64,000 nt of DNA from NCBI RefSeq assembly GCF_900172325.1, contig NZ_FWFR01000001.1, positions 992,001 through 1,056,000 of the forward strand, in the 5' to 3' direction. The DNA comes from Oceanibacterium hippocampi. Its GTDB lineage: Bacteria > Pseudomonadota > Alphaproteobacteria > Sneathiellales > Sneathiellaceae. Positions 3,586 through 16,905 of the stretch are shown here, piece after piece. Below the pieces are notes generated by a model that was not told the DNA's origin, did no database searches, and saw only the letters and a program-made list of their open reading frames with translations. Position 1 is the first letter of the stretch; every line of letters begins with the position of its first letter. The position numbers were made by a program, and so were the translations under genes.

Positions 3586-5673
3586 CTAGTGCGCGGTGTG
3601 GGAAACCGCCGACGATGCCTTGAGCGCGGCCTCGCGTCGCCATTCCGTGGAGAGCGCGATTCCCTCCGGACTGTCGAGGAAGTTCCGGAGCGCGGAAACA
3701 ACGTCCGGATCGTACTTCTCGGGATGCATCTCGAAGATACGCAGCGCCTCTTCCGCGCTGATCGTTTCGCGGTAGGACCGCGGCGAGATCCGGGCGACGA
3801 AGACATCGACGGTACCGAGGATCCGCGCCGCCATGCAGATCCGCTCGCGCTTCATCCCCGCCGGATAGCCGGACCCGTCGAGTCGCTCGTTCATCTGGCC
3901 GACCGCGTCGACGATGTTCCGGTCGAAGTTCATTTTCTGCAGGGTCTGGGCGGCGCCGGAGACATGGGCACGGAGCTGGATGAGCTGACTCGGGCTCAGC
4001 CGGCTTTCGCTGAGCCGCAGGCTGGGCGGGACCGACAGCTTGCCGATCTGCGACAGGCTGGCGGCGAACTGCAGCATGGACACCGCCTCCGGCGTGAAGC
4101 CGAGCATGCGCGCGACGCCGCTGGCGAGATGGGTGACCCGTCCGCTGTGGCCGGCGAGATAGTGGTCGTTCTGCTCCATCGCGTGGGCGAGCACGGCGAT
4201 GGTCTGGTACATCGCCTTTTCCTTGATCTGCTGGCGTTCCATTGTCGCGGTGACGTCACGGGCGACCGTGACGACGCCGATCGCCTTGTCGGCGCTGTCG
4301 CGCAGCGGCGTCTTCGAGATATGCAGATAGATGAAGCCGTCGCCGTCGGCGAGCTTGTGGTGCTGCTCCACCATGCCGTTTGTGGCCAGCGCGTTGCGGT
4401 CCGCCTGGTTCAGCCGGCGGGCGAACTCGGCGTCAAAGATGTCGCTGTCGGTGCGGCCGATGATGTCGGCGGCATTCCGGTCGAGCGCCTTGGCGAAGGC
4501 CGGATTGACGTAGAGATAGCGGCCGTCGATGTCCTTGACGCCGATGTGTTCGCTGATCGCGCTGTTGATCGCGTCGAGCAGGCGGCGCTGGTCCTGGATG
4601 CGGCCGGCGAGGCGACGGAACTGCTCGGCCAGCGCCCGGTTGGAGTCGCTCCGCTGCTTGTACCAGAAGCCGGCGATGGCGGCGGCCGCGGCAAGCAGCG
4701 CGAGGACGGTCAGGCTGCCGGCGAAATTCCGGAACTCGGCCAGCGGGGCGAGTGCCTTGCGGACCTCGTACTCGTGGCTCACGACCCAGTCGGTGTCGGC
4801 CAGGTGATAGCCGGCGGCGAAGACCGCGACGTCGTGGCCCGGGCCGCGACGGGCGGCGAACCGGGTGGCGAAGGCGGCATCCTCGTCGGTCGCGCGGAAA
4901 TGCGGCTTGGACCAGGGCCGCACCTCGACCGCGCCTTCCGGCATGCGCTGGAAAAGGCGGGTCCGTTCACCGGCACGGGTTTGCGCGGTCGGCGACAGGA
5001 GTCGGCCAAGCGCCTGCGAGGCCGGCAGGGTGACGATCAGCGTCGCCGCGAAGCGTTCGGCGCCGTCGTTTGCGATCTGCGGCTCGTTCACCGGCATGAC
5101 GAGATCGAGTTCGAGGCCGCTTTGTCCTTCGCGGAAGCGGGAGAAACTCGTCTTGCGCCGGGCCGCCACGGCGATCGCCGCGAGGCGCTGTTCGTCGCTG
5201 AGGCGCGGCGCATCGGCGCTGGCCAGCAAGGCGCGGCCGCTCGGGTCGGCGAGATAGGCGGCGGCGAGTCCGCTGTCACGGGCGAAGGCCGTGATGCTGG
5301 CCTGCATGTAGGGAAGCTGGCGGGCCAGCGCGTCTGGAAGCCCGTCGCGGTGCAGATCGGCCTCGGTGGCGAACAGCTGCACCGTCGGCGCATTGGCGAA
5401 GCGCCGCGCCAGTCCCTCCTGCGCTTCGAGCCAGGTCTTCAGCACCTCGGCGCGGGCGCCGACCACGAGTTCCGTATGCTGCTTGGTGGTCGCGACGATC
5501 ATGTTCTTGCGGCTGTTCACCGCGTACCAGAGAACGGCGAAGGCGAAGACCGTGATCAGCAGGAAGCAGGTGATGGCGAGCGCCATGCTCCGGCGGGCGC
5601 CGACCGGGCGAAGACTGCCCGCCGGAGCATCCAGCATGACGCGGAGCGGACTGATGCTCTCGTTGCTGTTCAT
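3586..5673 (-). CDS. Membrane sensor with PAS and degenerate HD-GYP domain
   Basis: A 695-residue membrane protein. A first transmembrane helix (about 31-52) and a second (about 317-338) flank a periplasmic region of about 260 residues. A PAS domain (about 365-480) and an HD-GYP domain (about 490-670) follow in the cytoplasm. HD-GYP enzymes normally hydrolyse cyclic di-GMP with a metal centre. Here the HD pair is lost (LSQIGK, 540-545), the HHE is lost (QMNERLDGSGYP) and the late DVFDA reads DVFVA. HS (509-510), one His (AHVSG) and the GYP loop remain. It is therefore probably a receptor, not an enzyme. The start overlaps the preceding LapG-like gene by ATGA. It is the last gene of the ABC-HlyD-protease operon. 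Confidence 0.85.
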   Translation of the reverse strand: MNSNESISPLRVMLDAPAGSLRPVGARRSMALAITCFLLITVFAFAVLWYAVNSRKNMIVATTKQHTELVVGARAEVLKTWLEAQEGLARRFANAPTVQLFATEADLHRDGLPDALARQLPYMQASITAFARDSGLAAAYLADPSGRALLASADAPRLSDEQRLAAIAVAARRKTSFSRFREGQSGLELDLVMPVNEPQIANDGAERFAATLIVTLPASQALGRLLSPTAQTRAGERTRLFQRMPEGAVEVRPWSKPHFRATDEDAAFATRFAARRGPGHDVAVFAAGYHLADTDWVVSHEYEVRKALAPLAEFRNFAGSLTVLALLAAAAAIAGFWYKQRSDSNRALAEQFRRLAGRIQDQRRLLDAINSAISEHIGVKDIDGRYLYVNPAFAKALDRNAADIIGRTDSDIFDAEFARRLNQADRNALATNGMVEQHHKLADGDGFIYLHISKTPLRDSADKAIGVVTVARDVTATMERQQIKEKAMYQTIAVLAHAMEQNDHYLAGHSGRVTHLASGVARMLGFTPEAVSMLQFAASLSQIGKLSVPPSLRLSESRLSPSQLIQLRAHVSGAAQTLQKMNFDRNIVDAVGQMNERLDGSGYPAGMKRERICMAARILGTVDVFVARISPRSYRETISAEEALRIFEMHPEKYDPDVVSALRNFLDSPEGIALSTEWRREAALKASSAVSHTAH

Positions 5674-6413
5674 TGCGGCATACCTCCGCGATGTTCCGGT
5701 TCCGCCGCCGTCCCGGCACCGTCCCGAAGCGCGAGCCAGGGGGCCATGTGGGCCCAGCGGGTCTCCCCATTGAGCGAGATATGGGGCAGGTAGAAGCGCA
5801 TGTCCGCGGCCTTCTGCAGATGATCGCTGCGCGAATCGAGAACCCATGTGCCCCGGGTCCTGACGATCAGGACGGCATGCGGGCGGTCGCGCAGCGTGTC
5901 CGTGACGATGACGATCCGGAGCTGGTGGTCGGCGAAGCCCAGTTCGCGCAACAGGACGTATTTGAGGACCGCCAGGTCGAGCGGGTCGCCGCCCTCGCGC
6001 AGGGTTTCCTTCGGCCCGGCCCAGCGCCCGTCGGGTTTGGCGAGGGGCGCGTCCGGGGCAGTGGCGAGGCTGTTCACGAACTGGTTGACGCCGGCCAGCT
6101 GCCGGCTGTTCGGCTGTCCTTCGAGCAGCATTTTCCTGGCCACCCAGCGCGCGACCGAGAAATTGCTGCAGTTCGTCTCGTCCCGGGCGCAGGCGTTCAC
6201 CGCCATCCGGAAGGCCGGCAGTCCGGCCAGGATATGACGCCATTGCGGGAAGGCGCCGAGGTCGTGCGAGGGAAATTCCAGCGAACCGAACAATCCGGTC
6301 TCGACGGCCAGCGGCGCCTCGGCGGCACGGGTGACAGTGCCGGCCAGGCCACATGCCAGCAGCAGAGCCATGAGCGCCGCCAGTCCGTGGCGCTGTCGCC
6401 GATACCCGCTCAT
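5670..6413 (-). CDS. LapG-like (BTLCP) protease homologue lacking the catalytic Cys
   Basis: A 247-residue secreted protein with a signal peptide (LAALMALLLACGLAG, cleavage near residue 30). It belongs to the bacterial transglutaminase-like cysteine peptidases (DUF920), the family of LapG, which cuts LapA-type adhesins in the periplasm. His179 (RPHAVL) and Asp193 (VLD) of the triad are kept. The block that reads GDCEDYA in active members is GDPLDLA here, so the nucleophile is Pro144. The codon is plainly CCG and the frame is intact, so this is not a frameshift. It is probably a binding-only pseudoprotease. The start overlaps the HlyD stop by 4 bp and the stop overlaps the HD-GYP start by 4 bp, which suggests tight co-expression. 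Confidence 0.85.
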   Translation of the reverse strand: MSGYRRQRHGLAALMALLLACGLAGTVTRAAEAPLAVETGLFGSLEFPSHDLGAFPQWRHILAGLPAFRMAVNACARDETNCSNFSVARWVARKMLLEGQPNSRQLAGVNQFVNSLATAPDAPLAKPDGRWAGPKETLREGGDPLDLAVLKYVLLRELGFADHQLRIVIVTDTLRDRPHAVLIVRTRGTWVLDSRSDHLQKAADMRFYLPHISLNGETRWAHMAPWLALRDGAGTAAEPEHRGGMPQ

Positions 6414-7735
6414 CGCTCCCTCAACGCATTGTCGCGCGCCTTCAGGATCGGCTTCAGCAGATAGTCCAGTATCGATTTCTTGCCGGTCAGGATGTCGACC
6501 GAGGCGACCATGCCCGGGATGATCGGCAGGCGCTGCTCGCCCCGCTGCAGGTAGGTCTTCTCGGTACGGACGGCGATCTTGTAGAAACTGTTGCCCTCGT
6601 CGTCGACGATTGTGTCGGCGCCGATCCTGTCGACCGTCCCTTCGAGACCGCCGTAAATCGAGTAATCGTAGGCGGTCAGCTTGACCGTCGCCTTCTGGCC
6701 GGGACGGATGAAGGCGATGTCGGCGGGCCGGACCTGCGCCTCGACCAGCAGGCCGTCCTCGATCGGCACGATCTCGACGATATCCTGGCCGGGCTGCACG
6801 ACGCCACCGACCGTGCGGATCTTGAGCTGCTTGACGATGCCCTTGACCGGGGAGCGAACCTCGGTCCGGGTGACCCGGTCCTGGGACGCCGAGATGGTCG
6901 TGCCAAGTGCGGTGAACTCCGAGGTCCGGGCGTTGAGATCGCCGGTCGCCTGGCTCCGGAAACTCAGGATCTTTTCCTCGATCCGCTGGTTGGCCTCGCG
7001 GATCGCCGCCTGGGCGCGCGGAATGCCGAGCCGGGTTTCCGCCTCCTCGCCCTTCAGGTCGTTGTACTGGCGGCGCAGCTTCAGCATCTGCACCTTCGGC
7101 ACGATCCCCTTGTCGGCGAGCGGCTGGTTGAGCTCGAGCTCTTCCTTCGCCAGCGCCATGCTTTCGCCGATCCGGTTGAGCCGGCTGTTCAGTTCGGTCA
7201 CCTCCTGGCGACGCTGGTCGGCCTGGCGGCGGAGAATGGAAATCTGGCTCTGCAGTTCGGCCTGGCGGGCATCGTAGAGGGCGCGTTCGCGCACCGCGAC
7301 CTCGCGGGCCTCGGCGAGCAGCTCCGGTGCGAACTCCAGCGGCCGGTCGTTGGCCTCGGCGGAAAGTCGGGCGATCTCGCCCATCAGCGTGTAGTAACGC
7401 GACTGCTTCTCGTCGAAATCGGCGGCTGCCGACTTGTCGTCGATGCGAACCAGCACCTGCCCTGCCTCGACCGCGTCGCCCTCGGCGACGAGGATGGCGT
7501 CGAGGATGCCGCCCTCGAGATTCTGCACGACCTGGACCTGGCTCGTCGGGATGACCCGCCCCGCGCCGCGCGTGAATTCGTCGATGATCGAGTTCGCGGC
7601 CCAGAAATAGGCGGCGACCATGAAGGCGGTGATGGCGAGCAGAAGCAACACCGAGGCCGGCCGCGGTCCCTGCAACCGGGCTGCCAGCACATCGGAGGCG
7701 TAATCGGCGTCTTCCCAGCGGTCAGCGGTCGCCAT
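6410..7735 (-). CDS. HlyD-family type I secretion adaptor (LapC-like)
   Basis: A 441-residue membrane fusion protein that bridges the inner-membrane ABC exporter and TolC. It has one transmembrane helix (about 28-48), a lipoyl-like half motif (about 60-100, QNLEGGILDAILVAEGDAV), a long coiled coil (about 105-290), the second lipoyl half and a beta-barrel domain. The C-terminus carries the HlyD signature (LPIIPGMVASVDI then LTGKKSILDYLLKPI). The start at 7735 lies inside the 3' end of the ABC gene (14-bp overlap), so the two are translated together. The cargo is not encoded in the window. Confidence 0.93.
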   Translation of the reverse strand: MATADRWEDADYASDVLAARLQGPRPASVLLLLAITAFMVAAYFWAANSIIDEFTRGAGRVIPTSQVQVVQNLEGGILDAILVAEGDAVEAGQVLVRIDDKSAAADFDEKQSRYYTLMGEIARLSAEANDRPLEFAPELLAEAREVAVRERALYDARQAELQSQISILRRQADQRRQEVTELNSRLNRIGESMALAKEELELNQPLADKGIVPKVQMLKLRRQYNDLKGEEAETRLGIPRAQAAIREANQRIEEKILSFRSQATGDLNARTSEFTALGTTISASQDRVTRTEVRSPVKGIVKQLKIRTVGGVVQPGQDIVEIVPIEDGLLVEAQVRPADIAFIRPGQKATVKLTAYDYSIYGGLEGTVDRIGADTIVDDEGNSFYKIAVRTEKTYLQRGEQRLPIIPGMVASVDILTGKKSILDYLLKPILKARDNALRER

Positions 7736-10172
7736 CGGGGCCTCCCTTCGGCGCCGGCGCGGCAGGTTTCGCGGCGGCCGGCCGGGCGACCTGGCCGCTC
7801 TGTTTCGTGGCGCCGATTCGCCGGGCATTGGCGAGGCCGAGGACCTCGTCGCGCGGCCCGTCGGCGACGATCTCGCCGTTGCCGATGACGATGACCCGGT
7901 CGACGAGTTGCAGCAGCGAGCTGCGGTGCGTGATCATCAGCAGGGTGCGGCTGCCGAGCGACTCGCGCATGCGCTGGATGAAGGCCTGTTCCGTCCGGTT
8001 GTCCATCATGCTGGTCGGCTCGTCGAGGATCAGGACCTTCGGATCGTTGAGCAGCGCGCGGGCAAGCGCCACCGCCTGGCGCTGGCCGCCCGAAAGCGTC
8101 ACGCCGCGCTCGCCGATCACCATGTCGTAGCCCATCGGCTCGTGCCGGACGAAATCGTCGACGCCGGCAAGGCGGGCGGCGCGGAGGATCATCCGGTCGT
8201 CGGCCAGCGGATTGCCGAGCGCGATATTCTCGCGCATCGTGCCCTGGAACAGCACGACGTCCTGCATTAACGTGCCGATCGCCTGGCGCAGGTCGGCCGG
8301 GTCGATCTGGCGGATGTCGGTGCCGTCCAGCAGGATCGAGCCGTCGTCAGGGTCGTAGAGCCCGATCAGAAGCCGCGACAGCGTCGTCTTGCCCGAGCCG
8401 ACCGGGCCGATGATGCCGACGCGTTCGCCGGGCCGGATCTCGAAGCTCATGTTCTTCAGCGACGCGATCTGGCTTTCCGGATAGCGGAACGAGACGTCCT
8501 CGAAGCGGACGCTGCCCCGGATGTCGGGGCGGTTCAGATGGTTCTTGCCCTGCGGGCGCTCGACCGGCAGCGCCATGATGTCGTTCAGGCCCTTGAGCGC
8601 GACCATCGACTGGTTGAGGCGGGCGAGCAGGCCGGCGACCTGGCCGAGCGGCGCCATCGCGCGCCCGGTCAGGATGGTACAGGCGATCAGCGCGCCGACC
8701 GTCATGTCGCCGGACATGATCCGGTAGACGCCGAAGACCACGACGGCGACCGTCACCGCCTGCATCACGGTCGAGGCGAAATTGACGCCGAAGCCGGCGA
8801 CCGTGCGGGTTCGCACGGCTGTGCGCGCGGTGGCGCCGACGAAGCGTTCCCATTCGCGCTGCATGTGGCCTTCGACGCCGAGGCTCTTGACGGTGTCGAG
8901 GGCGTTGATCGTTTCGACCAGGATGCCGTGCTTGCGGCTCGCTTCCCTGTTCTGCTGACGCATCGCCCGGCGCATCGGCCATTGCAGGATCAGCCCGGCG
9001 CCGATGACCACCGGCACCGCGATCGCCGGGATTGCCGCGATCGGCCCGCCGAGCAGCCAGACAATGGCGAGGAACAGCCCGATGAATGGCAGATCGACGA
9101 GCGCCACCAGGGTCGCCGAGGTGAAGAAGTCGCGCAGCGACTCGTACTCTTTCAGGTAATGGGCGAACTCGCCGGCCGATTTCGGCCGCGCCTTGACCTT
9201 AAGGGCCAGTACCTGCTCGAAGAGCCGGCTGGAAAGCAGCACGTCGGCCCGCTTCCCGGCATTGTCGACGAAATAGGCGCGCAACGATTTCAGCAGGATG
9301 TCGAAGCCCAGGATCGTCGCCATCCCGGCGGCGAGGACCCAGAGCGTCTCGACCGCCTGGTTCGGTACGACCCGGTCGTACACGTTCATGACGAAGATCG
9401 GGCTGGCGAGCGCGAACAGGTTGATCAGCACCGCCGCCAGCGCGACCTGCATGTAGGATGGCCAGAACCGGCGCAGCGTGCCCCAGAACCAGGAACGCGG
9501 GTTCTGGCTCGCGGCCTCGGCTTCCGCGGCGCGGCGGAAGCGGTGTTCCGGCCGGACGAAAATCGCATAGCCCGCGTAGAGCGCCTTGACTGCCTTGAGC
9601 GGCAGGATCTCGCTGCCGTCGCCGGTCTCGGGCAGGATGATCTCCGCGCGGTCGCCGTCGAGACGGCGCAGCAGCACGCAGGCGGACCGGTTCTTGAGCA
9701 GCAGCACCGCCGGCAGCACCATGTCGGGTACCTGGTCGAGGCCGCGGCGGGAAATCCGCGCGCTCAGATCGAGGCGGCCGGCGGCGCGCAGGAAGGTGGC
9801 GGGCGTAAGCTTGCCGCCTTCGAGCGGCAGGCCGTTGGTCAGCGACGCGGCGCTGGGCGCCCCACCGAACAGGCGCGCAACGACGCGCAGGCAGCCGAGC
9901 AGCGGATCGGCGGGTTCCGCGGCGATCTCGGCGGCGCTGACGACCCAGTCGCTTTCGGCCTGCGCCGCGCTGCCCGCATCGTTGTGGTCGGCGGCTGCCG
10001 TGTCCTGCGCCGGCGCCGTGCCGTTGCGGCCACCCATGCCGAACAGTTCACGCACGCCGCGCGACCGGGCAGCCTCCGGTGTCGCCAGCGTGCCGAGACG
10101 CTGCCGATCGTTGTCGGCGGCCGCATCGCGTCTCGCCGCGGCTCCCTTCCCGTCTGGTGCCGTAAGCGTCAC
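7722..10172 (-). CDS. Type I secretion ABC permease/ATPase with degenerate C39-like domain (LapB-like)
   Basis: An exporter of about 816 residues. After a 70-residue polar N-terminal extension comes a C39-peptidase-like domain starting DPLLGCLRVV. It has no catalytic Cys-His pair (SACVLL where active members have a His), as in LapB and HlyB, where it acts as a docking domain for unfolded cargo. Six transmembrane helices follow, then an ATPase with Walker A (GPVGSGKTT), the signature LSGGQRQ and Walker B (VLILDEPTS). The GTG at 10172 has GAGGGG 9 bases upstream; a TTG at 10181 is the alternative. It is the first gene of a four-gene operon: ABC, HlyD, LapG-like, HD-GYP. Confidence 0.92.
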   Translation of the reverse strand: MTLTAPDGKGAAARRDAAADNDRQRLGTLATPEAARSRGVRELFGMGGRNGTAPAQDTAAADHNDAGSAAQAESDWVVSAAEIAAEPADPLLGCLRVVARLFGGAPSAASLTNGLPLEGGKLTPATFLRAAGRLDLSARISRRGLDQVPDMVLPAVLLLKNRSACVLLRRLDGDRAEIILPETGDGSEILPLKAVKALYAGYAIFVRPEHRFRRAAEAEAASQNPRSWFWGTLRRFWPSYMQVALAAVLINLFALASPIFVMNVYDRVVPNQAVETLWVLAAGMATILGFDILLKSLRAYFVDNAGKRADVLLSSRLFEQVLALKVKARPKSAGEFAHYLKEYESLRDFFTSATLVALVDLPFIGLFLAIVWLLGGPIAAIPAIAVPVVIGAGLILQWPMRRAMRQQNREASRKHGILVETINALDTVKSLGVEGHMQREWERFVGATARTAVRTRTVAGFGVNFASTVMQAVTVAVVVFGVYRIMSGDMTVGALIACTILTGRAMAPLGQVAGLLARLNQSMVALKGLNDIMALPVERPQGKNHLNRPDIRGSVRFEDVSFRYPESQIASLKNMSFEIRPGERVGIIGPVGSGKTTLSRLLIGLYDPDDGSILLDGTDIRQIDPADLRQAIGTLMQDVVLFQGTMRENIALGNPLADDRMILRAARLAGVDDFVRHEPMGYDMVIGERGVTLSGGQRQAVALARALLNDPKVLILDEPTSMMDNRTEQAFIQRMRESLGSRTLLMITHRSSLLQLVDRVIVIGNGEIVADGPRDEVLGLANARRIGATKQSGQVARPAAAKPAAPAPKGGPDGDR

Positions 10173-10181
10173 CCTGTGCAA

Positions 10182-10553: not shown

Positions 10554-11909
10554 ATGCATTCGCTGAAATCGTTGTCGACATCCATTGCCGTCGTCGCATT
10601 GGCCGGGCCTCTGGCCGTCGGGCTGTTCACCGGCGCCGCCGGCGCTGCGTCCCTGAAGGAGACCGTGCAGGCGGCGATCGGTACCTACCCGGAAATTTCC
10701 GAGGCGGCCTACAATCGCTACGCCACCGAACGCGAGCTCGATCAGGCGCGCGGCCTTTACCTGCCGAGTGTCGATCTCCAGGCCGGATACGGACCGGAAT
10801 GGACGGACGACCAGAGCTTCGACAACAAGTGGCTGACGCGCAAGGAATCGCGCATCACGATCCGCGAAACCATCTTCGACGGCTATGGCCGCGAGGCCGA
10901 GGTCGAGCGCCAGCAGGCGCGCACCGACGCCGCCGCCCATCGTGTCCGGGAGCGGACCGAGGCGATCGGCCTCGACGTCGTCCAGGTCTATCTGAACGTG
11001 CTCCGCAACCGCGAGATCATCCGCCTGGCCGAGGAGAATGTGGAGGCCCACAACGCGACGCTCGGAACCGTTCGCGACCGCTTCGATGGCGGGCAGGGCG
11101 GCATCGGCGACGTGCAGCAGGCCGAAAGCCGGCTTTCGGCAGCCAATGCGGCACTGATCCAGGCGCAACGCGACCTCGACGAGGCGGAGATCATTTTCCG
11201 CCGGCTCGTGCAGCAGGTCCCGGCCGATCTCGAGGAGCCCGCAGCGCCGGTCGCGGCGCTGCCCCCCGATCCGGACGCGGCGGTCGAGCGGGCACAGACC
11301 GAGAGCCCCGACATCCAGCTCGCCGTTGCCGATGTCGATACCTCCCGCGCCGAGCTGCGGGCCTCGAAGGCAGGCTTCTATCCGAGCCTGAACGTCGAGG
11401 TCAGCGGTTCGATGAACGAGGACATCGACGGCGTCGAGGGGCATGACGCCGATTTCCAGGCGCTCCTCGTGATGCGCTACAACCTGTTCCGCGGTTTCAT
11501 CGACCGCAACCGGCAGCGCGAGGCGGCGGCCCGCCTGTCGCAGACCCAGGCGCGGCTCAACCGGCTCCGTCTCGAGGTCGCCGAAGAGACCCGGCAGTCG
11601 TGGAGCGCATACCAGCGCGCCCTGGCGCGGGTCGAGGTGCTGGACGGCCAGACGCTTTCCAACAGCCAGGTTCTCTCGACCTATCGGCAGGAGTTCGATA
11701 TCGGCCAGCGCGACCTGCTGGACCTGCTGGATTCCGAGAACGAACTGTTCCAGTCGCGGACCCGCCACGTCACCAGCCGCTACGCCGCGCTGTTCGCCCA
11801 GTTCCGTCTGCTTGCCAGCATGGGCGTGCTGATGGACGCGCTCGGCGTCGAGGTGCCGCAATCGACGGTGGCCAACGCGCGGAGCTCGACCTGGTCGCTG
11901 CCGGACTAG
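10554..11909 (+). CDS. TolC-family outer membrane channel of the type I secretion system
   Basis: A 451-residue protein with a signal peptide ending in an Ala-rich AAGAA region (about 33). Two repeats of the outer-membrane efflux domain follow (LKETVQAAIGTYPEISEA; later PDIQLAVADVDTSRAELRASKAGFYPSLNVEVSG). The closing part (ALARVEVLDGQTLSNSQVLSTYRQEFDIGQRDLLDLLDSENELFQSR, given here as a region) is typical of type I secretion TolC and LapE proteins. It supplies the outer-membrane exit for the ABC/HlyD pair encoded on the opposite strand. GGAG lies 8 bases before the ATG. Confidence 0.92.
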   Translation: MHSLKSLSTSIAVVALAGPLAVGLFTGAAGAASLKETVQAAIGTYPEISEAAYNRYATERELDQARGLYLPSVDLQAGYGPEWTDDQSFDNKWLTRKESRITIRETIFDGYGREAEVERQQARTDAAAHRVRERTEAIGLDVVQVYLNVLRNREIIRLAEENVEAHNATLGTVRDRFDGGQGGIGDVQQAESRLSAANAALIQAQRDLDEAEIIFRRLVQQVPADLEEPAAPVAALPPDPDAAVERAQTESPDIQLAVADVDTSRAELRASKAGFYPSLNVEVSGSMNEDIDGVEGHDADFQALLVMRYNLFRGFIDRNRQREAAARLSQTQARLNRLRLEVAEETRQSWSAYQRALARVEVLDGQTLSNSQVLSTYRQEFDIGQRDLLDLLDSENELFQSRTRHVTSRYAALFAQFRLLASMGVLMDALGVEVPQSTVANARSSTWSLPD

Positions 11910-11937: not shown

Positions 11938-12624
11938 TCAGCCGGCCGGGCGGTAGCGCCACCAGCCGTTTTCGTTGACCGAGTAGATCGGCCGGTAGTG
12001 GCGGATCCGTCCGGCTTCCACGACCATCGAGATCTGGTTGTCGAGGACGTAGATCTTGTCGCCCTCCCGCACCGTCAGCACGGCATGCGGAATCCCGAGG
12101 TTGAGGTCCTGCAGGACGACGATCCGGAGGTCGTCCGCCGGCACGCCGATGGCGCGCAGCGAGAAATACTTGGCAATCGCATAATCCTCGCAATCGCCGA
12201 AGCGTCGGAAGAACTCGTCGGGCGAGGCCCAGTAATCCTTCACGCCCCAGTTGATCGGGTCGAGGATGTAGCGATAGCGGTTCATGAAATCGTTGACCGC
12301 CTCGAGCTGGCGCAGCCGCGGCTTCCCGGCGACGTCGCGGATCAGCGCCTGCCAGCGTTCGTAGTGGCAGCGGTTGAAGGTCGGGTCGTCGCAGCTTCCG
12401 GCCCTGTCCTTGCGGGCCTCGAAATAGCGCTCGATGGCGCCGGTCCAGCGCGGGAACGGCTTCAGCCCCTGATGCGCGGTGGCGCGGCTGCCGAACAGGA
12501 TCGTCGTGTCGCCGGTGCCGGTCGCACCGGCGGCCGCGCCGACGGTTCCGACCGCCGTGCCGGCGGCGAGCAGGCCGGCGAATGCCAGCGCCCGGAGGCG
12601 GGCGGCTCCCCGCCCTCTCGCCAT
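11938..12624 (-). CDS. LapG-like (BTLCP) periplasmic cysteine protease, intact triad
   Basis: A 228-residue secreted protein (signal peptide to about residue 33). It has the full LapG-family signature: NWGVKDYWASPDEFF (125-139), then GDCEDYAIAKY with Cys145, then His180 in GIPHAVL and Asp195 in YVLD. LapG cleaves the N-terminal region of giant adhesins, releasing them from the outer membrane, and binds calcium near the DCED stretch. The start at 12624 has AGGGG 6 bases upstream. The gene is convergent with tolC and divergent from the second HD-GYP gene. It is the only active-looking protease of the pair in this locus; the paralogue at 5670-6413 has lost its Cys. Confidence 0.9.
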   Translation of the reverse strand: MARGRGAARLRALAFAGLLAAGTAVGTVGAAAGATGTGDTTILFGSRATAHQGLKPFPRWTGAIERYFEARKDRAGSCDDPTFNRCHYERWQALIRDVAGKPRLRQLEAVNDFMNRYRYILDPINWGVKDYWASPDEFFRRFGDCEDYAIAKYFSLRAIGVPADDLRIVVLQDLNLGIPHAVLTVREGDKIYVLDNQISMVVEAGRIRHYRPIYSVNENGWWRYRPAG

Positions 12625-12787: not shown

Positions 12788-14941
12788 ATGATCGGCGATC
12801 TCGCCGGCGCCGCCGGCCACACGCCGGCCCGCCTCGAGGGCCGCCTGCCGCTGATCGGCGGGCTGATCCTGATCGCGGCCGTCCTGGTCGGGGCCTTCTT
12901 CTCCTGGCGTTTCGTCGAATCCGAACGGGCCCGCGAGCTGCAGCAATGGCAGGTCCGCCTCGGCCTCGTTGCCGACAGTCGCGCCGCCGCGGTCGAGCAA
13001 TGGCTCGACGACCGCCGCGGCACGCTCCGCGACCTGGTCGAGAATGCCTCCGTCCAGCTCTACCTGACCGAGCTCTCGCTCGCCCGCGACGGCGGCGGTC
13101 GGGCAGGTGGCGCGGGCGCCGAATCCGAGTATCTCGCCAACCTTCTCGAGGTCGTGGCCGAACGCGACGGCTATACCGCGCCGGTCGTCGGCCCGCGCGT
13201 CAACGCCAATGTCGCCCGCGTCGGCCAGGCCGGCCTCGGGCTCACCGACGCCGACGGCAACCTGCTGGTCGCGACCCGCGACATGCCGCCGATGACCACG
13301 GCGCTGCGCGAGGCGATGGCGCGGGCTGCGGGCGGCGAGGCGGCCTTCGTCGATATTCACGAGAATGCCGCCGGCAATCTTTCGCTGGGCTTCGTGCTGC
13401 CGGTCTTCGCCGTGCAGGAATCAGCGGCGGGCAGCCGCGTCGTCGGCTTTGCCGTCGGCCTTCGGCTGCTCGGCGACGGCTTCTTCCGGCTGCTCGACCA
13501 GCCCGGCGAGACCGCGGAAAGCGCCGAGACCTTCCTGGTCCGGAAGGACGGCGCGATGATCGTCTACCTGACGCCGCTGCGCGACGGGACGCCGGCGATG
13601 AAGCGACGGCTCGCCGCCGACAGCGCCGATCTCGCGGCCGCGCGGCTGGTCGCCGACAGGGGCGGCTTCACCCTGACCCGCCGCTACGACGGCACGCCGG
13701 TCCTGGCGACCGGCCGGGCGCTGGCCGGGGCGCCCTGGTATCTCGTCCGCATGATCGCCCGTGACGAGGCGCTGGCCGCGGTCGAGCAGCGTCTCGACAC
13801 GATCCTGATCGTGCTGTTCGCCAGCATCATCGGCGTCGCCATCGCGATCTTCGCGGTCTGGCGCCATGGCAGTTCGGTGCGCGCCCACGCCATGGCCGGC
13901 GATTACCGGGCGATGGCCGAACGGCTCGAGGAATACAGCGACTTCCTGCGCATCGTCACCGACCGCCAGCCGACCGCCATTGCCGTGGTCGATGGCGAGG
14001 ACCGCTTCACCTTCGCCAATGCCGGGGCCGCCGCCGGGGCCGGAATCGGCCAGGAAGACATGATCGGCATGCGGCTGCGCCAGGTCATCGGCCCGGTCAT
14101 GGCCAGGGACATCGAGGAAACCAACGCTGCCGTGCGCGGCGACGGGCACGCACGCACGGTGACCCGACGGATCGCCGCCGAGGAGAACGACGACGGTTCC
14201 GGCGAGCGCATCGTCCTGCGCGAACACCGGCCGCTCGGCGAGAGCGCTCAGAAGCGCGGCCGGATCCTGATCGTCGAGCACGACATCACCGAACTGGTTG
14301 TCGAGCGCGAGCGGCGCGAGCAGGTCATGCGCGATCTTGTCTCGACACTGGTCACGCTGGTCGATCGCCGCGATCCCTTCTCGGCGGACCAGTCGCGCCG
14401 GGTGGTCGAGGTCGCCGCCGCGATCGCCACCGAACTCGAGGTCGACGAAACAACCGCGCAGACGATCGACATCGCGGCCCGCCTGATGAATCTCGGCAAG
14501 CTGCTGGTGCCGAGCAACCTGCTGACCAAGCTCGGTGCCCTGGACGACGACGAGAAGCAGCTGATCCGGGACAGCATCCTGCAGACCGGAGACCTGCTGG
14601 CCGGTCTCGACTTCCGTCTGCCGGTGGTGGAAACGCTTCGCGAAGTGCAGGAACACTGGGACGGGACCGGGTACCCGAACGGCCGGGAGGGCGAGCGGAT
14701 CCTGATCGCCGCGCGAATCATCGCAGTCGCCAATGCCTTCGTCGGCATGGTAAGCCCGCGGGCCTATCGCTCGGGCATGGATTTCTCGACCGCTTGCGAC
14801 GTGCTGTCGGCCAATGGCGGCCGACGCTTCGACCGCCGGGTCGTCAGTGCGCTTGTCTACGTGCTGGAAAACCGCGGCGGGCGCGAGCGCTGGGCCTATT
14901 TCTCCGAGCCGCCGAAGCTGATCGCCCACCTTCCGGAATAG
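12788..14941 (+). CDS. Membrane sensor with PAS and fully degenerate HD-GYP domain
   Basis: A 717-residue protein with the same plan as the one at 3586-5673: transmembrane helix 1 (about 21-42), a periplasmic sensor region of about 290 residues, transmembrane helix 2 (about 337-357), PAS (about 385-505) and HD-GYP (about 512-695). All the usual metal ligands are gone: QSRRV for HSxRV, LMNLGK (566-571) for LHDIGK, ILQTG for HxxxG, EVQEHWDG for HHERWDG and ANAFVG for ADVFDA. The loop HWDGTGYP (623-630) is kept, so it may still bind a nucleotide or partner without hydrolysis. The ATG at 12788 was chosen because the membrane helix follows at normal distance; its ribosome site is weak. It is divergent from the intact LapG-like gene. 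Confidence 0.82.
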   Translation: MIGDLAGAAGHTPARLEGRLPLIGGLILIAAVLVGAFFSWRFVESERARELQQWQVRLGLVADSRAAAVEQWLDDRRGTLRDLVENASVQLYLTELSLARDGGGRAGGAGAESEYLANLLEVVAERDGYTAPVVGPRVNANVARVGQAGLGLTDADGNLLVATRDMPPMTTALREAMARAAGGEAAFVDIHENAAGNLSLGFVLPVFAVQESAAGSRVVGFAVGLRLLGDGFFRLLDQPGETAESAETFLVRKDGAMIVYLTPLRDGTPAMKRRLAADSADLAAARLVADRGGFTLTRRYDGTPVLATGRALAGAPWYLVRMIARDEALAAVEQRLDTILIVLFASIIGVAIAIFAVWRHGSSVRAHAMAGDYRAMAERLEEYSDFLRIVTDRQPTAIAVVDGEDRFTFANAGAAAGAGIGQEDMIGMRLRQVIGPVMARDIEETNAAVRGDGHARTVTRRIAAEENDDGSGERIVLREHRPLGESAQKRGRILIVEHDITELVVERERREQVMRDLVSTLVTLVDRRDPFSADQSRRVVEVAAAIATELEVDETTAQTIDIAARLMNLGKLLVPSNLLTKLGALDDDEKQLIRDSILQTGDLLAGLDFRLPVVETLREVQEHWDGTGYPNGREGERILIAARIIAVANAFVGMVSPRAYRSGMDFSTACDVLSANGGRRFDRRVVSALVYVLENRGGRERWAYFSEPPKLIAHLPE

Positions 14942-14992
14942 GACTTGCCGGTTTGACGGCGCAGTTCCGCGTCGCTTCCGGGCGAGGTCCGC

Positions 14993-16072
14993 TCAGGTGG
15001 CGCCGGGCAGGGCAGCCGGGCCGGTCAGCACAAGCTTGATCAGCTCCGCCTGGCGGTTCGTATCGGTCTTGCGGAAGATCTGCCGGAGCTGGGAGCGTAC
15101 GGTGTGCTGGCTCAGGCCGAGGTCGCCGGCGATCGTCTCCAGCGTCGCGCCGTTGGCCAACAGGGCGGTCAGCCGGGCTTCGGCCGGTGTCAGCCCATGG
15201 AGCCGGGCGAGCGCGTCGGTCGAGAGCGAAGGCGGTGCCGAGGGATCGGCAAGGAAGATCACGGCGCCGCCCTCGGCGCGCTCGTGCAGCGGGGCGACGA
15301 GGGCCGAGATCGCTCCCTCCGTCCGATGGCGCTGCAGCCCGATGGTGCAACCGAGTTCGGCATCGGCGACCCCGTCGAGGGTGGCGCGCACAAGCTGGTC
15401 GAAGGCATGGCGGTCGGCCGCGTGGCTGGCCCGGCAGATCCCGTCCCGGTCGATGGTCAGGCCGGTCGAGGCGTCGAGCAGCGCCCGCGCCCTTTCATTG
15501 GCAAGGCGAACCCGGCGCATCCGGTCGATGATGACGATCCCGAGCGGCAGGCGGTCGAGCAGCGCGGCGACCGGTGATTCCGGTGCGAGCGGCGGCAGGC
15601 CGGTGCGGGACAGCCGGCTGCGGTTGCGAACCACGGCGCTGATCAGCGTACGGGCCAGCAGTGCCTCGTCGATCCGGGGCGTGTCGAACACGTCCTCGAA
15701 GCCGTGCTCCAGCAGAGAATAGCGGACCGTCTCGTCGAGCCGCCGCGGGACATAGGCAATGACCGGCCGGGTGTCGCCCGCGCCGGCGGCGGCGACCATC
15801 GTGGCGAGATGCGACGCCTCGTAGCCGTCGATGTCGATGATCACGACGTCGGCCGGCGCCTCCGCCTGCAGTCGGCGGACCGAAACCGGATCGATTGCGG
15901 AGCCGGTGCGGAAGCTCGGCCGGCGGATCCGGCCGATGGCGCGCCGGAGCATGGCCAGGCGATCCCCATGGGCGCTGACCACGAGAATCGCGGCCTTGTC
16001 GATTTCAAGAATTCTCGGCTGCATCGCGAAGGCGGTCGGGATTGCGCCCGCCAATTGCCTGTCCAGCAGCAT
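14993..16072 (-). CDS. LuxR-family regulator with pseudo-receiver and PAS-like regions
   Basis: A 359-residue protein. The C-terminal 60 residues form a LuxR/NarL helix-turn-helix (LTPAEARLTALLANG, then LGLSQHTVRSQLRQIFRKT). The first 130 residues resemble a response-regulator receiver fold but lack the acidic pair (ILVVSAHGD where active ones have VDDD), although an Asp sits at IIDIDG. The middle (about 190-280) looks PAS-like. It is probably controlled by something other than phosphorylation. The start at 16072 has GGGGAG 8 bases upstream. It is convergent with the HD-GYP gene at 12788-14941 and could regulate the secretion locus; that link is inference from position. Confidence 0.78.
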   Translation of the reverse strand: MLLDRQLAGAIPTAFAMQPRILEIDKAAILVVSAHGDRLAMLRRAIGRIRRPSFRTGSAIDPVSVRRLQAEAPADVVIIDIDGYEASHLATMVAAAGAGDTRPVIAYVPRRLDETVRYSLLEHGFEDVFDTPRIDEALLARTLISAVVRNRSRLSRTGLPPLAPESPVAALLDRLPLGIVIIDRMRRVRLANERARALLDASTGLTIDRDGICRASHAADRHAFDQLVRATLDGVADAELGCTIGLQRHRTEGAISALVAPLHERAEGGAVIFLADPSAPPSLSTDALARLHGLTPAEARLTALLANGATLETIAGDLGLSQHTVRSQLRQIFRKTDTNRQAELIKLVLTGPAALPGAT

Positions 16073-16113
16073 CCATACACTCCCCACGCCGTCCGCGACA
16101 AGCGCGTGACTCC

Positions 16114-16147
16114 GCCCCCGAAGCGGGGGCTCCTCCGTTCCTAACGG
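16114..16147. repeat. Two adjacent short inverted repeats between luxR and tetR genes
   Basis: GCCCCC (16114-16119) pairs with GGGGGC (16125-16130) around a GAAGC loop. Immediately after, CCGTT (16135-16139) pairs with AACGG (16143-16147). Both lie in the divergent gap upstream of both regulators. They could be an operator for the TetR protein or leader stems. The pairing is seen directly; the role is unknown. Confidence 0.4.
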
Positions 16148-16263
16148 AATAACGCCGCAGATTTTAAGGAAATGTGAAGGCCGGTCACCGGGCGGCGATC
16201 TTTGCGCGCAGCGCCGACCGGGGGTATCGTGGCGAACCGGAAGTCGACAAGGAGCGGAGCCGA

Positions 16264-16905
16264 ATGGCACGGCCTCGGAAATACGACGACGCGGATGTTC
16301 TGGACAGGGCGGTGGAGGTCTTCTGGCTGAAGGGCTTTGCCGCGACCTCGATCCAGGACCTGGTCGAAGCCACGGGGCTCAACCGCGGCAGCCTCTACAA
16401 TGCCTATGGCGACAAGGCCGGCCTGTTCGCCGCGGCCATCGAACGCTATGGCAGCCTGTCGCCGCTGCGGGCGATGGTGAAGCACCAGAACGACGCACCG
16501 CCCCGGCAGTCGATCGAACGCCTGTTTCGCGATCTGGTGGCGATTGCCGGCGCCGATCGGGCCCATCGTGGCTGTCTGCTGACCAATACCGCGACCGAGC
16601 TCTGCGCCCTGGATCGTGACATGCAACAGCGCATCGCCGAGAATTTCGGTGACGCCGAGGATGCGCTTTGCCGGCTTGTCGAGCGGGGCCAGGCGGCCGG
16701 CGTCATCGCGGCCGGGAGGCCGCCGCGGGCGCTCGCCCGAGGCCTTCTGGCCACCATGCAGGGGCTCTGGGTGATGTCCAAGGTCGATCCCGAGCCGGAG
16801 CGGCTTCGCGACATCGCCGATGCCGGCCTGGCGATGCTCGACGCGCCGCCCTGCCGCAGGGTGGCCGCACCGGACGAACGAATGGAAGAGGAGCGTATAT
16901 CATGA
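16264..16905 (+). CDS. TetR-family transcriptional regulator
   Basis: A 213-residue regulator. The N-terminal DNA-binding domain is canonical: RKYDDADVLDRAVEVFWLKGFAATS, then IQDLVEATGLNRGSLYNAYGDKAGLF (about residues 5-52). The C-terminal ligand region resembles the TetR_C_16/AcrR-like type with GCLLTNTATEL. The start at 16264 has AAGGAG 10 bases upstream. It overlaps the DUF427 gene by 4 bp (ATGA), so they form an operon and the regulator probably controls its partner and itself. The ligand is unknown. Confidence 0.9.
   Translation: MARPRKYDDADVLDRAVEVFWLKGFAATSIQDLVEATGLNRGSLYNAYGDKAGLFAAAIERYGSLSPLRAMVKHQNDAPPRQSIERLFRDLVAIAGADRAHRGCLLTNTATELCALDRDMQQRIAENFGDAEDALCRLVERGQAAGVIAAGRPPRALARGLLATMQGLWVMSKVDPEPERLRDIADAGLAMLDAPPCRRVAAPDERMEEERIS

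Follow-up and report, generated by a model that had tools for sequence, protein, structure and literature searches.

What does an HD-GYP protein do once it has lost every metal ligand? The question is raised by HDGYP_B, a single uninterrupted ORF of 717 amino acids from ATG to stop (12788-14941, plus strand) in the 64,000-nucleotide stretch of the Oceanibacterium hippocampi genome that was analyzed here (the window). A longer GTG ORF starting at 12479 was considered less likely; it overlaps the divergent protease gene. HDGYP_B lies in a locus with the following gene order:

3586..5673, minus strand: HDGYP_A, second dCache-PAS-HD-GYP receptor, DvhD-like; HD replaced by SQ as in DvhD
5670..6413, minus strand: BTLCP_A, LapG-like pseudoprotease; 4-base overlap with the HDGYP_A start
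6410..7828, minus strand: HlyD-type T1SS membrane fusion protein, LapC-like (TIGR01843)
7722..10181, minus strand: LssB/LapB-type T1SS ABC exporter (TIGR03375, E = 6e-288)
10554..11909, plus strand: TolC-type T1SS outer membrane channel, LapE-like (TIGR01844)
11938..12624, minus strand: BTLCP_B, LapG-like periplasmic cysteine protease, divergent from HDGYP_B
12788..14941, plus strand: HDGYP_B, TM-periplasmic dCache-TM-PAS-HD-GYP, predicted catalytically dead; putative DvhD-like receptor, subtype B
14993..16270, minus strand: LuxR/GerE-type regulator with PAS; adjoins HDGYP_B in nearly all family loci

The LapB-type exporter is the only full match in the genome above the TIGR03375 family cut-off, and the genome has exactly two BTLCP genes, both at this locus. 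The whole arrangement was found again in 17 of 17 same-family (Sneathiellaceae) genomes fetched (L037-L053). HDGYP_B of L051 is broken into two overlapping ORFs (13750-15865), a frameshift or sequencing error. The PAS-LuxR protein at 14993-16270 may be a transcriptional regulator of the adhesion locus. With a probability of roughly 85%, HDGYP_B is no phosphodiesterase but a DvhD-type c-di-GMP receptor of the inner membrane, one that controls BTLCP_B and, through it, adhesin retention.

HDGYP_B has Pfam matches to HD_5 (PF13487, E = 1.1e-34), PAS_4 (E = 7.6e-9) and, weakly, dCache_1 (E = 0.009). Transmembrane segments at ~20-38 and ~339-357 flank the periplasmic domain, which gave no significant match by sequence alone and needed fold comparison. 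A preliminary description of this DNA held that all metal ligands are gone, and alignment to the DvhD crystal sequence bears this out, with 0 of the 7 canonical positions left. The motifs it listed, including an intact HWDGTGYP, are all present in the translation. Ligand positions beyond HD and HH are those established for HD-GYP enzymes. His is replaced by Gln in ADQSRR, HD by MN in LMNLGK, His by Ser in DSILQTG, HH by VQ in EVQEHWDG and Asp by Asn in VANAFVG. The loss is far beyond chance because it is fixed in identical form in every one of the 18 Sneathiellaceae B copies that could be aligned. The 114 related proteins keep at most four of the seven ligands; HDGYP_A (P0002) keeps 3 of 7 when aligned to DvhD. 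The active HD-GYP phosphodiesterases PmGH (4mcw), PA4781 (4r8z) and V-cGAP3 (5z7c) share the fold and the GYP loop, but they differ from HDGYP_B, which is without any metal ligand. Hydrolysis by HDGYP_B is not expected because no metal ligands are left.

A receptor of this kind is known from Desulfovibrio vulgaris Hildenborough. DvhD has HD replaced by SQ and HH by MN; no c-di-GMP hydrolysis was measured and no metal density was seen, and the protein binds c-di-GMP with a Kd of ~99 nM (PMC13090378). It controls the LapG-like protease DvhG and thereby the retention of a type I adhesin (PMC13090378). Ligand loss combined with kept nucleotide contacts is therefore the expected signature. The best PDB sequence matches of HDGYP_B are the DvhD PAS/HD-GYP structure 9rc0 (E = 2.9e-45) and the c-di-GMP-bound HD-GYP structure 9rbz (E = 1.5e-39). 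An AlphaFold2 model built from a 57-sequence alignment (pLDDT 88.9) matches 9rbz with Z = 27.3, 9rc0 with Z = 25.9 and the DvhD periplasmic domain 9rc2 with Z = 21.9. The last is the top dCache structure match, followed by the next solved dCache at Z = 17.8. The model also has the broken alpha1/alpha1' helix, a DvhD-type feature (helices 19-84 and 87-101). HDGYP_A matches 9rc0 (E = 1.5e-53) and 9rc2 (E = 1.3e-8). In the cytoplasmic part, subtype B shares only ~28-38% identity with DvhD, and HDGYP_B falls outside the DvhD clade in the receptor tree, where DvhD groups with the type A receptor of the locus. HDGYP_B is therefore a DvhD homologue and likely an analogue, not the closest orthologue.

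The nucleotide site was compared in DvhD numbering. HDGYP_B keeps the contacts Arg650, Tyr652, Arg653, Met646, Leu577, Lys582, Tyr621 and Pro567, and departs from DvhD at Lys520 (Arg), Tyr523 (Phe), Arg569 (Asn) and Glu668 (not kept). Across types A and B, the canonical contact Arg650 is kept in 111 of 111 alignable sequences; Arg653 is conserved in all but one of them and the bridging Pro567 in nearly all. DvhD also contacts c-di-GMP through the Tyr of GYP. Most Sneathiella HDGYP_B copies (e.g. L040 and L045) have Gln at this position; the window copy keeps Tyr. A rather unlikely alternative is that the HD-GYP domain senses another nucleotide such as pGpG or 3'3'-cGAMP, or that a periplasmic dCache ligand is the main signal and c-di-GMP a secondary one. 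In its favor, 3'3'-cGAMP is bound by DvhD too (PMC13090378). The Glu668 with which DvhD reads the amino group of guanine is absent from both A and B, Met646 is Arg in A, and the dCache fold is typical of ligand sensors. Against this, HDGYP_B keeps Arg650, Tyr652 and Pro567, and its site is otherwise DvhD-like.

As a c-di-GMP receptor, HDGYP_B would work like LapD with an HD-GYP in place of the EAL domain. At high c-di-GMP the nucleotide would be bound by the metal-free HD-GYP dimer, and binding would rearrange the helical stalk through the PAS domain and the membrane. The periplasmic dCache domain would then keep the neighboring BTLCP_B inactive, and the T1SS-exported adhesin would remain anchored in TolC. 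At low c-di-GMP, BTLCP_B would be freed and would cut the adhesin after its retention domain. The logic shared with LapD/LapG of Pseudomonas fluorescens would be that of a dead c-di-GMP enzyme serving as the inside-out receptor of a periplasmic cysteine protease. LapG cuts a T1SS adhesin at [T/A/P]AAG, and the same is presumed here. LapD differs in being LapD_MoxY_N-HAMP-GGDEF-EAL rather than dCache-PAS-HD-GYP; HDGYP_B has neither a GGDEF-EAL module nor LapD_MoxY_N. A search for LapD_MoxY_N (PF16448), run without a positive control, had no match across the family.

DvhD/DvhG (BfsD/BfsG; PMC13090378; PMC11784015) shares more with the locus: a TM-dCache-TM-PAS-dead HD-GYP receptor beside a LapG-like protease in a LapB-type T1SS locus, loss of both HD and HH, and retention of Arg650, Tyr652 and Pro567. 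It differs in that HDGYP_B is a distinct subtype transcribed divergently from its protease, the adhesin is unlinked, and the window has a second, A-type pair with a Cys-less protease. DvhG is membrane-anchored with a long linker, whereas here the protease domain follows closely on a single, signal-peptide-like N-terminal hydrophobic segment. In 2026 an HD-GYP receptor with LapD-like control was described from sulfate reducers (PMC13090378), and the partly accessible literature found on such control does not discuss Alphaproteobacteria.

The candidate adhesin, P0005, is a 1723-amino acid protein encoded on another contig (G000:C6:354806-359977). It has a retention-like N-terminal domain, an APAAGG site, six T1SS-143 repeats and an RTX C-terminal end. 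The LapG/DvhG cleavage site is DP plus [T/A/P]AAG; most family copies read have DP or NP followed by APAAG, and the window genome has DA for DP. The retention module is present in 19 of 25 family genomes; P0005 was not reached by the curated LapA retention model. Because the adhesin is unlinked to the locus, we can only infer that P0005 is its substrate. Other candidates were set aside. An NF033682 adhesin search of the same genome gave five sub-threshold matches, three FecR-like and two not adhesin-like, and the RTX ORFs on contigs C7 and C16 are other RTX proteins with no retention module seen at their starts. Just beyond the window end, two large FecR-like secreted proteins are encoded near each other in open frames of ~930-950 amino acids (G000:C16:1056789 and 1061071).

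The same architecture and type of neighbor in HDGYP_A and HDGYP_B had been noted beforehand, and both hold. Their history was examined in unrooted trees of receptors (72 rows) and proteases (67 rows). The branch separating A from B receptors has an SH-aLRT support of 100. Window A groups with Sneathiella A (support 98) inside a clade that holds DvhD, Desulfobacterota and other alphaproteobacterial A types. Window B groups with Sneathiella B and the B types of Rhodospirillales, Kordiimonadales, Chromatiales and Desulfurivibrio. In the protease tree, LapG falls with the B types, apart from the A types (support 95/96). L086_A and L252_A are long branches of unsure placement, and the grouping of window A with L086_A in the protease tree is equally unsure. 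The A/B splits are congruent in the two trees; HD-GYP and protease are therefore inherited together as pairs. HD-GYP adjoins the protease in about two-thirds to three-quarters of 80 loci from Alphaproteobacteria, Gammaproteobacteria and Desulfobacterota, and several of the others lie on short contigs. Alphaproteobacterial BTLCPs of L095-L100, L103-L106, L143, L144, L146 and L153 have no recognizable HD-GYP neighbor in the stretch examined. Desulfobacterota compared in twos (L240, L242, L244, L246 and L248 versus L241, L243, L245, L247 and L249) have two A-type HD-GYP receptors per genome, one in a T1SS operon without a protease and the other beside a BTLCP elsewhere.

The phylogeny proposed in the preliminary description thus shows pairs that travel as pairs, with a split that predates the family. 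Its idea of duplication and division of roles survives in part: a local duplication does not, as each copy sits with other orders or phyla, and division of roles is plausible because the pair A protease lacks the catalytic cysteine, a point that description had missed. It is improbable that HDGYP_A and HDGYP_B are recent paralogues whose roles are now diverging, produced when the entire receptor-protease pair was duplicated around the T1SS. Shared architecture, shared neighbors and the joint inheritance of receptor and protease would suit such an origin, but the two receptors are only ~24% identical and the fully supported A/B split contradicts it. Pair A, moreover, is ordered ABC-MFP-protease-receptor like the Dvh operon, whereas pair B forms a divergent unit of its own; the A-type operons L199, L201, L202 and L239 have the order ABC-HlyD-BTLCP-HDGYP with the Cys kept. 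If a duplication did give rise to A and B, it predates the family, and the trees, being unrooted, do not show a duplication of pairs.

The AlphaFold3 model in the DvhD paper places the alpha1' helix against DvhG (PMC13090378). Of 37 A receptors, 30 have an LFA[ATSV][ED]-like signature in this helix and 1 has an NxSLQxY-like one; of 73 B receptors, 2 have the former and 64 the latter. Both patterns were written after viewing the sequences. These signatures would fit two insulated receptor-protease couples.

The two proteases differ in their active sites. BTLCP_B has an intact Cys-His-Asp triad and calcium motif (GDCEDYAIAK), matches the LapG model (E = 3.7e-31) and the LapG structure 4fgo (E = 2.8e-27), and is intact in 18 of 18 family copies. 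These copies came from an unbiased PF06035 search; for the other B loci the search pattern itself included GDCEDYAI, which biases the intact Cys outside the family by selection. In BTLCP_A of the window the catalytic Cys is Pro (GGDPLDLAVLKY), with His and Asp kept. The residue is Ser in 16 of 16 aligned Sneathiella copies, and L048 and the incomplete L079 are also without Cys; with the window copy included, 16 of 17 keep the His and all 17 the Asp. The BTLCP_A model (pLDDT 87.9) has the LapG fold (Foldseek 4fgq, E = 1.5e-10). Change of the DvhG Cys to Ala abolishes cleavage, and BTLCP_A should therefore be non-cutting.

Outside the family, A-type BTLCPs keep the Cys in 13 of 15 cases. The exceptions are L203 (G202), where it is Asp, and L086, where it is Arg in the alignment and the His is lost too. 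A-type Cys loss seems to have occurred more than once, the placement of L086 being unsure. The genome also has a second, intact BTLCP in all three cases of Cys loss, and both BTLCPs are intact in G171 and G348. It is very unlikely that BTLCP_A is an active serine-type protease: the presence of Ser in every Sneathiella copy, mostly alongside a conserved His and Asp, speaks for it, but the residue is Pro in the window and Asp in the separate case L203, and calcium ligands are also lost in one-third of the Sneathiella copies. BTLCP_A is a conserved pseudoprotease in every family member examined and is under purifying selection. A pair with a conserved dead LapG-like protease appears not to have been described previously; a literature search on BTLCP pseudoproteases, degenerate HD-GYP receptors and Sneathiella adhesins, with most subscription papers and preprints outside its coverage, found nothing on point.

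Between Sneathiella species, dN/dS is 0.06-0.10 for BTLCP_A, 0.05-0.11 for BTLCP_B, 0.06-0.08 for HDGYP_A and 0.02-0.05 for HDGYP_B, rough values with dS near saturation. The two HD-GYP proteins had been described as being at different stages of degeneration, which does not hold: each ligand state is fixed, older than the family and under purifying selection. The notion that the locus encodes decaying, pseudogene-like proteins without function is highly improbable. The loss of catalytic residues in both HD-GYPs and BTLCP_A speaks for it, but the losses are fixed across the family, all four genes, that of the dead protease among them, have dN/dS of 0.02-0.11, frames are intact, folds are confident and ligand contacts are kept.

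HDGYP_B is thus a real, catalytically dead HD-GYP protein and, we infer, a functional receptor, a new subtype of the recently described kind. Nucleotide binding, control of the protease by the receptor and adhesin cleavage would follow the DvhD scheme at this locus. Pair A would be the counterpart of the Dvh operon with a catalytically dead protease. BTLCP_A most likely serves as a non-cutting competitor or adaptor for the adhesin or the receptors, a role much less certain than that of HDGYP_B. Tentatively, the pseudoprotease under its own DvhD-type receptor may oppose the active protease in Sneathiellaceae, shielding retention domains or occupying receptors, so that release would need the input of both receptors.

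Subtype B pairs are common across Alphaproteobacteria and also occur in Chromatiales and Desulfobacterota, which makes subtype B a likely c-di-GMP receptor for LapG-like proteases without an adjoining LapD. The most surprising part is the neighboring pair with its conserved pseudoprotease. We know of no earlier pseudoprotease regulator of the Lap/Dvh kind; the two-receptor switch, if true, would be the first, and adhesin release would depend on two c-di-GMP receptors. The paired locus makes it testable what a non-cutting LapG does for adhesion.
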